Assembly: GCF_002224245.2 (NCBI RefSeq)
Contig: NZ_NKHK02000008.1
Location: forward strand, 1 to 64,000
DNA: 64,000 nt
Direction of reading: 5' to 3'
Source: Moraxella sp. VT-16-12
Lineage (GTDB): Bacteria; Pseudomonadota; Gammaproteobacteria; Pseudomonadales; Moraxellaceae
The position numbers and the translations under genes were made by a program. How positions within the stretch are numbered: the first letter of the stretch is position 1; each line of letters opens with the position of its first letter. Below are positions 37,388 through 41,860 of the stretch, piece by piece. A model generated the notes under the pieces. That model saw only the letters and a list, made by a program, of their open reading frames with translations, did no database searches and was not told the DNA's origin.

Positions 37388-37888
37388 TTATTTGACTTGG
37401 CTGACCATATAATCCACCGCCGCATACACTTCAGCTTCTGAAACATCGCCTGTTACCTGAGCAGGCATTTTACCAAAGCCTTTGGCAGAATGCAGATACA
37501 AAGTATCCATGCCTTTGTCTAGGCGTTTTGCCCAGTCGGCTTTGGCGGTCAGCTTGGGTGCGTTTAGTAGCCCTTGGTCATGACAGACGCGGCAAGTTTT
37601 TTCATAGCGAGCTTTACCTTCTTCTAATGACACCGCTTTGACCGCTTCTTTGGGGACTTCTTTTGTAGTAGCTGGCTCGGGTTTTTCCACATCACCAACA
37701 GGCTCAGGCTCGCTTTGGGCAGTCTTTGTTTGTTCAGTAGCTTGGGTAGGCTCGGCAACGGGCGTGCTTTGGGCAGGACTTGGCGTTGATTGGGTAGCTT
37801 TGTCAGGGGCGGGCTTGTCATCACCACAAGCGGTCAAACATACCGCACTGGTCAATAATACCGCTAAGATTTTGCTGGGAGTGTTCAT
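37388..37888 (-). CDS. Cytochrome c5-like lipoprotein
   Basis: This 166-aa predicted lipoprotein (lipobox LTAC, Cys21) has a long Pro/Thr/Glu-rich linker (about 25-85) that would span from the membrane. It ends in a class I c-type haem domain: haem-binding CRVCH at 99-103 and axial Met at about 141 in GKMPAQ. The domain closely resembles cytochrome c5. It probably carries electrons in the periplasm near the terminal oxidases. It is upstream of the CitE-like gene on the same strand and divergent from ileS. Confidence 0.85.
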   Translation of the reverse strand: MNTPSKILAVLLTSAVCLTACGDDKPAPDKATQSTPSPAQSTPVAEPTQATEQTKTAQSEPEPVGDVEKPEPATTKEVPKEAVKAVSLEEGKARYEKTCRVCHDQGLLNAPKLTAKADWAKRLDKGMDTLYLHSAKGFGKMPAQVTGDVSEAEVYAAVDYMVSQVK

Positions 37889-38064
37889 AGGTTACCTTGC
37901 AAATTTTTATTATCATAAGTACAGACATAATATAACTAATTTTTATCAGCTTTTAAAGTTTTTTTATGATTTTATGGGGTTTTATTGGGTGTGGGTTTTT
38001 GCAGATTTTTGCCTTTTGCTTTATAATAATCTGTTATTTTACCAACAGTCAAAGAGCCATCTTT

Positions 38065-41000
38065 ATGACCAACACCACCCAACAAGACTATAAAAACACC
38101 CTAAATCTTGCGGACACGCCCTTTCCCATGCGTGCTGACCTTGCCAAACGTGAACCAAAATGGCTTGATGAATGGGAAAAAGATGGGTTATACCAAAAAG
38201 TGCGTGAGTCCAAAAAGGGGCTGCCAAAATACATCCTACACGATGGCCCGCCCTATGCCAACGGTCAAATCCACCTAGGTCATGCGGTAAACAAAGTCCT
38301 AAAAGACATCATCACCAAATCCAAAAACTTATCAGGCTTTGACGCGGTTTATGTGCCGGGGTGGGACTGTCATGGTTTGCCGATTGAGCAAAAAGTTGAG
38401 CAAAAAGTTGGCAAAGTCGGTCAAAAAGTGGACGCCACCGAGTTTCGCCGTCTGTGCCGAGACTACGCCAAAAGCCAAATCGCCCTACAAATGAAAGACT
38501 TTAAACGTCTGGGCGTGCTTGGTGATTGGGATAACCCTTATCTGACCATGAATTTTAAACAAGAAGCAGGCATCGTGCGAGCTTTGGGTAAGATTTATGA
38601 CAATGGTCATATCGTGCGTGGTCTAAAACCTGTGAACTGGTGCTTGGACTGTGGCTCTGCCCTTGCCGAAGCCGAAGTAGAATACGCCGACAAAAAAAGC
38701 GACGCCATCTATGTGGGTTTTGACATCACCAATCGTGATGCCCTGCCACAGACCAAGGATATACAAGGCAAACTACAAGCAGTGATTTGGACAACGACCC
38801 CTTGGACACTGCCTGCCAACCAAGCCATCAGCGTGCATGAGACGTTTGATTATGCAGTTGCACAAGGTGTATTGCCACCACCTGCCTTTAAATTACCCAA
38901 AACTTTAACAGCAGATAACTTTTATCTTAGACCACTCACCAAAGACGACAAAGACGCTTTATGGCAAATAGCAAAAGACCCTGCCATTTGGGAGTTTATG
39001 CCAGAAAAACGCCACGAACCTGCTGTTTTTGATAAGTATTTTCAACAATCACTCACTCAACACGCCTATGTCATTATTGATCACACCAGCGAGCAAGTGA
39101 TTGGGGCGACACGTTTTTATGATGACAAACCAAGTGATGACAGCATTGCCATCGGTTATACCTTTTTTGCCCCCAGTTATTGGGGAACGGGTGTCAATGC
39201 CAAAATTAAACAAGCCATGTTGGATTATGCCTTTACCCAACGCCAAAAGGTGCTGTTTTATGTATTCCCAGACAACAAACGCTCTGGCAACGCCCTAAAA
39301 AAACTGGGGGCAACCTATCAGGGTTTTGATGAGCAAAGCCATCGTGATATTTATGCCATCACTTCCCCAAACCCCAGTACCAAAGTTACCCAAAACTTTA
39401 TCATTGCCAAAGATTTATTAGAAGACTTTGTCAGCACCACCAAACTTAATAATCCACAAGTAATAACCACCATCAAAGGCAAAGAGCTGACCGCCCTAAC
39501 CGCTCAGCACCCACTGATTGACAGCCGTCAAGTGCCCATCATCACAGGCGACCATGTTACTGCCGACAGCGGTACAGGGCTTGTACACACCGCCCCTGCT
39601 CATGGTGTGGACGACTACAATGTTGGCATCAAATATGGCTTACCAACCGACAATCCTGTGAGCGGTAGCGGTGTGTATTTACCAGAAGCAATGGCGTTTG
39701 TGGGTGAGCACATTTATAAAGCCCAACCCAAAATCATTGACGCTTTGCAAGCAAGTGGTCATCTGCTACATCACAGTGTCATCACCCACAGCTATCCGCA
39801 TTGCTGGCGACACAAAACACCGATTATTTTTCGTGCCACGCCCCAGTGGTTTATCAGCATGGAAAAACATGGCTTACGCCAAAAAGCCTTAGATGACATC
39901 AAAAAAGTTACTTGGACGCCTGCTTGGGGTCAAAACCGCATTGAAGCGATGGTAGAGTCTCGCCCTGACTGGTGTATCTCTCGCCAACGCACTTGGGGCG
40001 TGCCAATTCCCTTTTTTATCCACAAAGAAACAGGCGAGCTCCACCCACGCACCAGCGAGCTGATTGAACAAGCCGCCCAACTGATTGAAAAAGGTGGTAT
40101 TGAAGCGTGGTTTGAAGCAAGCTGTGGCGACTTTTTGGGCGATGATGCTGACAGTTATGACAAAGTTAGCGACACGTTGGACGTATGGTTTGATTCTGGG
40201 ACAACACATTGTGCGGTGCTTGATGAAGATGACAATTTAACTAACCCTGCTGATATGTACCTAGAAGGCAGCGACCAACATCGTGGCTGGTTTCAAACCT
40301 CGCTACTCACCAGTGAAGCCATCTATGGACGAGCTCCCTTTAAGCAAGTCTTGACACATGGCTTTGTGGTGGACGAAAACGGCTACAAAATGAGCAAATC
40401 GCTTGGTAACATCATTGAGCCACAAAAAGAGATTGATAAAACAGGGGCGGACATGCTCCGCTTATGGATTGCATCTAGCGACTATCGTTATGAGATGAGT
40501 GCAGGACAAAAAGTCTTTGCAGGGGCGGTGGATAACTACCGACGTATCCGCAACACCATTCGCTTTTTGCTTGCCAATACCAGCGATTTTGACATCAAAA
40601 CAGACGGTGTGCCACTTGATGAACTGGTTAGCCTTGATAAATTTATCTTGCACAAAGCCCACCAAACCCAACAAACGATAGTCAAAGCTTACGCCGACAT
40701 GGATTTTCATAGTGTGGTACAGGCAGTGAGCGTGTTTTGCTCGCAGGATTTGGGCGGATTTTATCTGGACATCATCAAAGACCGCACCTACACCACCAAA
40801 GCTGATGGCAAGCCCCGCCGTTCGGCACAGACTGCTTTGTATCATATCGCCCAAGCCTTGGTACGCTGGATTGCTCCGATTTTGCCCTTTACCGCTCAAG
40901 AAGCGTGGGGTTTTATCCGCTCTGACATGGACGAAAAATACATTTTTTCAACGCTTTGGTATGAGCTGCCCACCCCTGCTTTAACCGCCATCACCAGTGA

Positions 41001-41355
41001 TGACTGGGTGATGATTTTGGCAGTCAAAGACACTGTCAATAAAGCCATGGACGAAGCTCGCACGGATAAACTCATCAGCAGCAATCTCACCGCCAAAGCC
41101 ACCATCACCACCGATGGCGACACCTTGACCGCTCTCAACAAACTGGGCGATGAAGCCAGATTTGTGTTTATCACCAGTGATGTAGAGCTAAAACAAGGTG
41201 AGTACAGCGTACTTATCACGCCTGCTGATGGCAAAAAATGCACTCGCTGCTGGCATATCCGCCCCGATGTTGGCACACACGACAACCATCCAGAGCTTTG
41301 CACTCGCTGCGTAACTAACGTGGACGGTGATGGAGAAGTACGCCATTATGCTTAA
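38065..41355 (+). CDS. ileS: Isoleucyl-tRNA synthetase with an inserted GNAT acetyltransferase domain
   Basis: This 1096-aa class I synthetase charges tRNA-Ile. The HIGH-like motif is in [17 protein letters not shown] is in YKMSKSLGN, the editing-site segment [16 protein letters not shown] is intact and the C-terminal zinc motif CTRCWH...CTRC is present. E. coli IleRS is about 938 aa. The extra length is one insertion at residues about 269-442, inside the CP1 editing domain, between FDYAVAQG and NFIIAKDLL. It reads as a RimJ/RimL-type GNAT domain ([15 protein letters not shown], then [19 protein letters not shown] and [16 protein letters not shown]). The frame is open from 37966, but the ATG at 38065 (MTNTTQQD) fits the family start. 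lspA overlaps its 3' end. Confidence 0.96.
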
Positions 41356-41860
41356 TACACCCAACAGCAAATCGGCGATGACTTACTACATCATCGCTGT
41401 GGTGGTGCTGATACTTGACCAAATCAGCAAGTATTATTTTAATAGCACCTTTGAGCTTTATGAAAGTGTGGACGTGATAGCACCTATTTTAAACTGGACA
41501 CTGGCTTATAATTATGGGGCGGCGTTTAGCTTTTTGGCAGATGCTGGTGGTTGGCAAAAGTGGTTTTTTGCCATTTTGGGCTTGGCGGTTTCGGTATTTA
41601 TTATTGGCTATCTAAGACAAACCGCCACCCATGCCAAAGTGCTGTCATTGGGTTTGGCACTGATTTTGGGCGGAGCGGTAGGCAATGTCATTGACCGCTT
41701 TATTCATGGTTATGTCATTGATTTTATTCATGTTCATTATGCTGATGTGTGGCATTATCCTGTGTTTAATATCGCCGATATTGGGATATGTGTGGGCATG
41801 GCATTGGTGGTGTGGGACATGATGTTTTTGGAGAAAAAGCGAGCAAAAGAAACGCCATAA
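41348..41860 (+). CDS. lspA: Lipoprotein signal peptidase (signal peptidase II)
   Basis: This 170-aa inner-membrane aspartyl protease removes signal peptides from prolipoproteins. The catalytic aspartates are D116 (GNVIDRF) and D144 (FNIADIG), with the conserved NYGAAFS at 55-61 and four hydrophobic segments. Its ATG overlaps the ileS stop codon by 8 bp, the usual ileS-lspA coupling. An in-frame GTG at 41327 is less likely. Confidence 0.97.

Follow-up and report, generated by a model that had tools for sequence, protein, structure and literature searches.

A GNAT acetyltransferase domain inserted in the CP1 editing domain of a Moraxella isoleucyl-tRNA synthetase

The ileS gene and its inserted block

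In a window of 64,000 nucleotides from Moraxella sp. VT-16-12 (contig NZ_NKHK02000008.1, positions 1 to 64,000 of the forward strand), ileS, the gene for isoleucyl-tRNA synthetase (IleRS), carries within its CP1 editing domain an extra block that reads as an N-acetyltransferase of the GNAT type. The gene is a single unbroken frame of 1096 amino acids that runs from the ATG at 38065, the best start by homology, to the end of its stop codon at 41355. Use of another in-frame ATG, at 37966, would lengthen the protein by 33 residues (37966-38064); in several relatives (e.g. L004, L006, and L010) the frame is shut 1-3 codons upstream of the equivalent of the later start. The features that define the insertion are as follows.

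38065..41355, + strand: ileS with its stop codon, IleRS with GNAT insert (Pfam, NCBIfam; sole full-length IleRS match in the genome)
38848..38871, + strand: host hairpin strand preceding the insert, residues 262-269 (AlphaFold)
38869..39390, + strand: inserted block, residues 269-442, standing where insert-free IleRS has a short hairpin turn (alignments with insert-free relatives and solved IleRS)
38881..38919, + strand: N-terminal tether, residues 273-285, modelled at low confidence (AlphaFold, predicted local distance difference test (pLDDT) <50)
38923..39312, + strand: GNAT domain PF13302, residues 287-416 (Pfam, predicted fold)
39367..39384, + strand: C-terminal tether, residues 435-440, pLDDT <50 (AlphaFold)
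39391..39408, + strand: host hairpin strand following the insert, residues 443-448 (AlphaFold)

Pfam places Acetyltransf_3 at residues 287-416 (E-value 2.2e-21; 77.4 bits against a cut-off of 25.4), flanked by tRNA-synt_1 (488 bits), Anticodon_1, and zf-FPG_IleRS, and alignments locate the 174 extra residues in a hairpin turn of CP1. Two solved IleRS chains (two printed alignments of 20 chains) align to residues 8-267 and 444-1085, with chain residues 257-260 alone between them. Insert-free relatives have 2 residues at the site in 15 cases (12 from the same genus and 3 from one neighbouring genus), 6-7 in five more distant ones, and 14 in one, L025. Because the solved chains and these 21 relatives have only a short loop there, the alignments indicate that 38869-39390 is a true insertion, and we could rule out that the segment is part of the normal CP1 fold, since solved IleRS lack the block. 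The initial annotation had proposed an IleRS of about 1096 residues in an unbroken frame with an extra block within CP1; the frame, the alignments, and the solved structures bear this out, and its coordinates for the insert correspond exactly to residues 269-442.

We considered mis-assembly or chance as the source of the fusion. Mis-assembly is very unlikely because the same fusion occurs at the same site in nine other genome assemblies, two of which are single-contig (G001 and G007). Excision of the insert through flanking repeats was also considered. A direct repeat of 21 bases, 19/21 identical, lies near both insert ends (38890-38910 and 39383-39403), and none of 100 codon shuffles reached such a repeat. 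Its copies are 493 bases apart and out of frame, so that a deletion between them would shift the ileS frame, and the repeat was not found in any of the nine other genomes with the insert; we therefore rejected this route.

The architecture itself is already catalogued in NCBIfam. The whole protein matches NF040702, 'ileS_w_GNAT' (type exception; isoleucine--tRNA ligase, N-acetyltransferase domain-containing), at 2149.1 bits against a cut-off of 1999 and over profile positions 1-1100 of 1100. We found no difference in architecture along the full length; the model supplies a name and no function. The supposition that such a fusion had not been described thus fails for the architecture; no published account was named among the papers listed in a literature search with little coverage of subscription journals. 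To the catalogued architecture, the present analysis adds that the insert stems from a free-standing GNAT subfamily, is patchily present in close sisters, was in one case likely transferred, and is under constraint, together with a model of it as a side domain.

The inserted domain as an acetyltransferase

The predicted structure agrees with the sequence profile. Modelled alone, the insert reached a pLDDT of 85.3 in AlphaFold, and the Foldseek/VIA rows listed for it are GNAT-type acyltransferases, apart from a few not so named. In the model of the whole protein (mean pLDDT 84.9), the synthetase part superposes on Priestia megaterium IleRS1 (8c9f) with a template modelling (TM) score of 0.91 by target length and 0.77 by query length. 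In this prediction the GNAT domain leaves the fold of the host as it is and is joined to it by linkers of low confidence, which are probably flexible. Within the domain, three stretches stand out.

38977..39042, + strand: signature D305-P-x-I-W309 ... R316 ... F322 ... F326, common to inserts and free-standing relatives
39181..39198, + strand: acetyl-CoA loop W373-G-T-G-V-N378, onto which the PacT contacts G108 and G110 map
39274..39303, + strand: stretch N404 to K413; the acetyl-CoA contacts N140, R142, and K149 of PacT correspond to its N404, R406, and K413

Across the ten inserts that we collected, the acetyl-CoA residues G374, N404, and R406 are kept in all ten, G376 and K413 in nine, and T366 in eight; among other positions mapped from PacT, 368 is hydrophobic in 10/10 and 405 is variable. 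Moreover, 31 columns are conserved at ≥80% in both the inserts and their close free-standing relatives, including W373, G374, N378, K382, N404, R406, S407, and K413 on the acetyl-CoA side. The stretch equivalent to D305-F326 usually faces the acceptor in GNATs. Profile, predicted fold, and acetyl-CoA residues agree that the block is a complete GNAT of the RimJ/RimL type, as first proposed. At the level of named families, the equivalog cut-offs for RimJ (PRK10809, 20.3 of 190 bits) and ArsN1 (23.3 of 170) in NCBIfam were not reached, and no RimL model was among the NCBIfam matches of the ileS product at E 0.001. We infer that the inserted domain is active and works autonomously as an acetyltransferase that depends on acetyl-CoA. 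One insert, L003 of genome G007, has the acetyl-CoA loop WGTSAN instead of WGxGxN and the lowest G+C of the ten (0.329, compared with 0.483 for the rest of its ileS); this insert may be losing activity.

RimJ/RimL-class relatives act on alpha amines. Attachment to CP1 by flexible-looking linkers would suit a domain that tunes synthetase activity to acetyl-CoA supply by acetylating lysines of the IleRS that carries it. We consider such self-modification the least probable of all the readings weighed here: RimL and MccE are said to act on alpha amines (PMC3817062).

The nearest solved relatives of the insert are PacT (PA3270, a Pseudomonas GNAT toxin; PDB 1yre and 8gxj) and its homologues (such as 8gxk), which would be consistent with a growth regulator resembling ItaT, one that in certain circumstances would slow translation by acetylating Ile-tRNA(Ile). 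Ile-tRNA(Ile) is reported to be the main cellular target of ItaT (PMC9177977); a GNAT fold and a possible link to Ile-tRNA are features that it would have in common with the insert. However, ItaT is part of a toxin-antitoxin pair, and PacT is encoded beside its antitoxin gene (PMC9561280), whereas the insert has no antitoxin gene and is part of an essential enzyme. We found no adjacent antitoxin gene at ileS, where 176 bases separate the gene from the upstream open reading frame (ORF; 37388-37888, - strand) and the downstream ORF (41327-41860) overlaps its end. Growth regulation is very improbable because the locus has no room for an antitoxin; none is evident beside 13 free-standing relatives either, in a listing of ORFs of ≥90 aa, and a constitutive Ile-tRNA acetylase in the sole IleRS would do harm.

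State of the host synthetase

The synthetase is intact on both sides of the insert, with catalytic and editing motifs, anticodon domain, and zinc finger present, in agreement with the initial annotation. We take the threonine motif W242-P246 and the motif at 503-518 to be the IleRS editing-site motifs.

38272..38283, + strand: HIGH-type motif HLGH, residues 70-73, intact; kept in 10/10 genomes with the insert
38788..38802, + strand: editing-site threonine motif W242-T-T-T-P246, intact; identical in 10/10 genomes with the insert and 21/21 insert-free relatives
39571..39618, + strand: editing-site motif G503 to 518, intact; identical in 10/10 genomes with the insert, small variants in 11/21 insert-free relatives
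40387..40401, + strand: KMSKS motif, residues 775-779, intact; KMSKS in 3/10 genomes with the insert and KLSKS in 7/10

The KMSKS-loop forms KMSKSLGNI and KLSKSKGNT are both found among genomes with the insert and among insert-free relatives. The domains and the HIGH, KMSKS, and editing motifs are those of bacterial IleRS type 1 (P. megaterium 8c9e/8c9f and Staphylococcus aureus 1ffy/1qu2), from which the protein of the window differs by its 174 extra residues where the 8c9e chain has residues 257-260. The ileS of the window is the only full-length IleRS match in its own genome; the other matches lie in frames of 971, 866, and 703 aa with at most 39% identity, presumably ValRS, LeuRS, and MetRS.

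These data bear on the possibility that the insert takes part in editing. In one form of this idea, Val-tRNA(Ile) formed by mischarging, or another non-cognate product, would be acetylated at its alpha amine on leaving the editing site, and peptidyl-tRNA hydrolase (Pth) would free the tRNA. In a broader form, the domain would provide a second, acetyl-CoA-dependent proofreading through alpha-amine acetylation of non-cognate adenylates or mischarged tRNA(Ile), followed by Pth clearance, in a module spread by recombination of ileS alleles. If mischarged products were acetylated, this would be a new kind of proofreading. The position of the insert within CP1 fits, as do the likeness to PacT, said to acetylate aminoacyl-tRNAs in the abstract of a paper whose section on this reports proteome changes (PMC9561280), and the naming of N-blocked elongator aminoacyl-tRNAs as Pth substrates in another (PMC9177977). 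However, the ordinary editing motifs are intact in 10/10 genomes with the insert, which leaves no editing gap for the insert to fill, and on this ground we rejected compensation for lost editing. Cognate Ile-tRNA would also be at risk, and the conserved residues of the domain are common with GNATs that are unattached to IleRS. We therefore regard acetylation editing as distinctly unlikely in the first form, and judge the broader form no differently.

Distribution and free-standing relatives

Comparison with other Moraxellaceae recovered the insert at the same site in 10/348 family genomes, each with a match of insert grade (293-325 bits) that lies in a frame >1100 aa. Seven of these belong to genus g1 (G000, G001, G004, G007, G009, G011, and G013) and three to genus g7 (G027, G052, and G271), that is 7/22 genomes of g1, or 7/19 judgeable ones, and 3/6 of g7. 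G003, G017, and G019 lack a full IleRS match and were not judgeable; G019, rated 100% complete, has neither an IleRS match nor a GNAT match. No further genome with the fusion was seen outside g1 and g7 in the sampled 369 genomes of the class and 390 of the order. A scan of genome contigs with the insert returned one locus, L031, in a Moraxella metagenome-assembled genome, whose IleRS is 88% identical to that of the window; the scan used a single sequence and reaches close relatives only. An essential, ancient enzyme has acquired a whole second enzyme that is nevertheless optional, as close sister species do without it.

The close free-standing relatives of the insert (94-140 bits) are frames of 172-221 aa, apart from one of 475 aa; the 21 rows represent 18 different genes, three of which appear twice, and one lies on a viral contig. 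They form a GNAT subfamily of gammaproteobacteria (e.g. L042, L062, and L126), four members of which are 33-40% identical to the insert. The subfamily has the 31 conserved columns in common with the inserts, and the insert alignment begins near the start of the free protein; in contrast, its members are separate genes, mostly of 170-220 aa, and the inserts form a clade of their own. We found no shared neighbour that could be a conserved gene partner in 13 contexts (12 regions and that of L042), in which ORFs of ≥90 aa were judged by eye. In two of the 13 (L135 of G673 and L136 of G431), the free-standing relative adjoins a gene that we take to be glmS-like.

A plasmid or phage origin was rejected: the scan of 72,556 plasmid records gave 62 matches and that of 50,697 phage records one, all at <60% identity. 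The best-ranked matches had identities of 40.5% in plasmids and 27.0% in phages, and nearer relatives are genes of genomes. Among viral contigs, a scan with an alignment of eight of the ten inserts (A1) found none, and a scan with alignment A3 found one GNAT, L097.

The relation to free-standing enzymes would be consistent with an active GNAT whose substrate is unrelated to IleRS, with the fusion giving steady expression from an essential gene and a tolerant loop bearing the domain at little cost to IleRS. The low-confidence linkers on both sides fit this proposal, and so do conserved columns that are the same as those of free-standing relatives with no common neighbour. It leaves unexplained, however, why the IleRS site has been kept although the inserts have diverged to 44-54% identity, and why the close subfamily is not represented by a free-standing gene in any of the ten genomes with the fusion, the sole second match being one of 36 bits in G007. 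We hold this proposal unlikely, and place it second in the order of readings.

Origin, movement, and selection

In a tree of the ten inserts and 43 free-standing GNATs, the inserts were one clade, with a support of 96 in the Shimodaira-Hasegawa-like approximate likelihood ratio test (SH-aLRT), beside the close free-standing group. Because they form one clade, a single fusion event is the simplest reading. This tree and those of RpoB and the IleRS core were quick searches without bootstrap.

Presence of the insert is patchy on the species side. On the RpoB tree of 25 genomes (nine with the insert; of 30 genomes, G009, G012, G015, G028, and G046 had no RpoB match), the presence label requires seven changes, at least six of them forced by starred branches, and its clustering is no better than chance, as 219/500 shuffles were as low. 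The tree of the IleRS core, with 31 genomes, requires six changes, and 18/500 shuffles were as low. The label changes on these two trees indicate that the insert has been gained or lost many times, and the trees do not tell gain from loss. Such frequent gain and loss, unclustered on the RpoB tree, would also fit a domain whose substrate has nothing to do with IleRS.

In one case, the insert seems to have moved between species. The RpoB of G001 groups with those of the insert-free G002 and G018, but the inserts of G001 and G013 are sisters (99/95). In DNA windows, G001 and G013 are 82-87% identical in the insert and 53-83% in the remaining ileS, and G001 and G002 are 69-98% identical outside the insert. 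Four-fold degenerate sites of G001 and G013 are identical at 37/55 positions in the insert versus 120/302 outside (p = 1.9e-4), and this was the sole pair of 45 to pass correction. Four other pairs had p <0.05, three in the opposite direction (G011-G007, G007-G013, and G007-G001) and one in the same direction (G004-G052, 0.014). On these comparisons, the insert of G001 and G013 looks transferred between species. The likely passage of a domain-sized piece within a housekeeping gene bears on the evolution of synthetases.

ileS also looks mosaic between species beyond the insert; for example, the DNA for residues 160-209 of G001 is nearer to that of G007 than to that of its sister G002. L025, the insert-free IleRS of G042 from genus g7, has a 14-residue loop at the site that weakly resembles the linkers of the g7 inserts, and our guess is that this loop could be a scar of insert loss.

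The ratio of nonsynonymous to synonymous substitution rates (dN/dS) was 0.08-0.28 for the insert, compared with 0.05-0.12 in the remainder of CP1 and 0.01-0.12 in the core (six pairs and two methods, leaving out one insert value and, for one pair, the two core values), and in 6/6 pairs the Nei-Gojobori (NG86) value of the insert exceeded that of the remaining CP1. These ratios indicate that the insert is under purifying selection, weaker than that on the host. In 10/10 genomes with the fusion, the insert has a lower G+C than the remaining ileS (0.433 versus 0.485 in the window). The weaker constraint in 6/6 pairs, together with the missing second glycine of the acetyl-CoA loop in G007, might suggest a catalytically silent spacer or relic that is retained for folding only. 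We find this improbable, as the acetyl-CoA residues are kept in 8-10 of 10 inserts across long divergence and dN/dS is no higher than 0.28.

Proposed role of the fused enzyme

The reading that we place first, at a probability of about 0.38 and thus tentatively, is that the tethered domain acetylates the alpha amine of a compound resembling an aminoacyl-adenylate or an amino acid and so inactivates this compound near IleRS; the reading in which the substrate has no relation to IleRS ranks next, and acetylation editing after that. A whole N-acetyltransferase of the free-standing RimJ/RimL class would have entered a permissive β-turn of CP1, in frame and most simply once. Since then, species would have gained and lost either the whole fused allele or the insert together with short flanks. 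The substrate would be a small primary amine, either an IleRS inhibitor that resembles an aminoacyl-adenylate or a non-cognate amino-acid-like compound, and tethering to IleRS would put the acetyltransferase at the target, where the compound would be inactivated. The accessory, exchanged distribution of the domain would then reflect exposure to such compounds. We place this detoxifying role first because an accessory and exchanged presence fits a niche-limited compound better than a housekeeping role.

The insert and the free-standing enzymes, the latter unattached to IleRS, probably act on substrates of one class, because the conserved columns, including those on the presumed acceptor side, are common to both; the same sharing counts against an IleRS-specific substrate. 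The initial annotation had put forward aminoacyl-tRNA, a mischarged product, the synthetase itself, or a translation factor as possible targets. RimL and MccE are said to acetylate amines and to detoxify aminoacyl nucleotides, the statement on RimL coming from unpublished data of the paper's authors (PMC3817062). Their sequence identity to the insert is 14-19%, and such an activity of the insert would follow by analogy.

Should the domain shield IleRS from adenylate-like inhibitors, it would amount to an unusually built resistance device, in which the inactivating enzyme is borne by the target. Naturally occurring pairs of close species, one with the domain and one lacking it, make its function testable through simple domain removal. 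SbzA and SbzC were considered as a precedent for an IleRS-like enzyme paired with a GNAT and set aside; the two are encoded by separate genes and carry out a different chemistry (PMC6331615).
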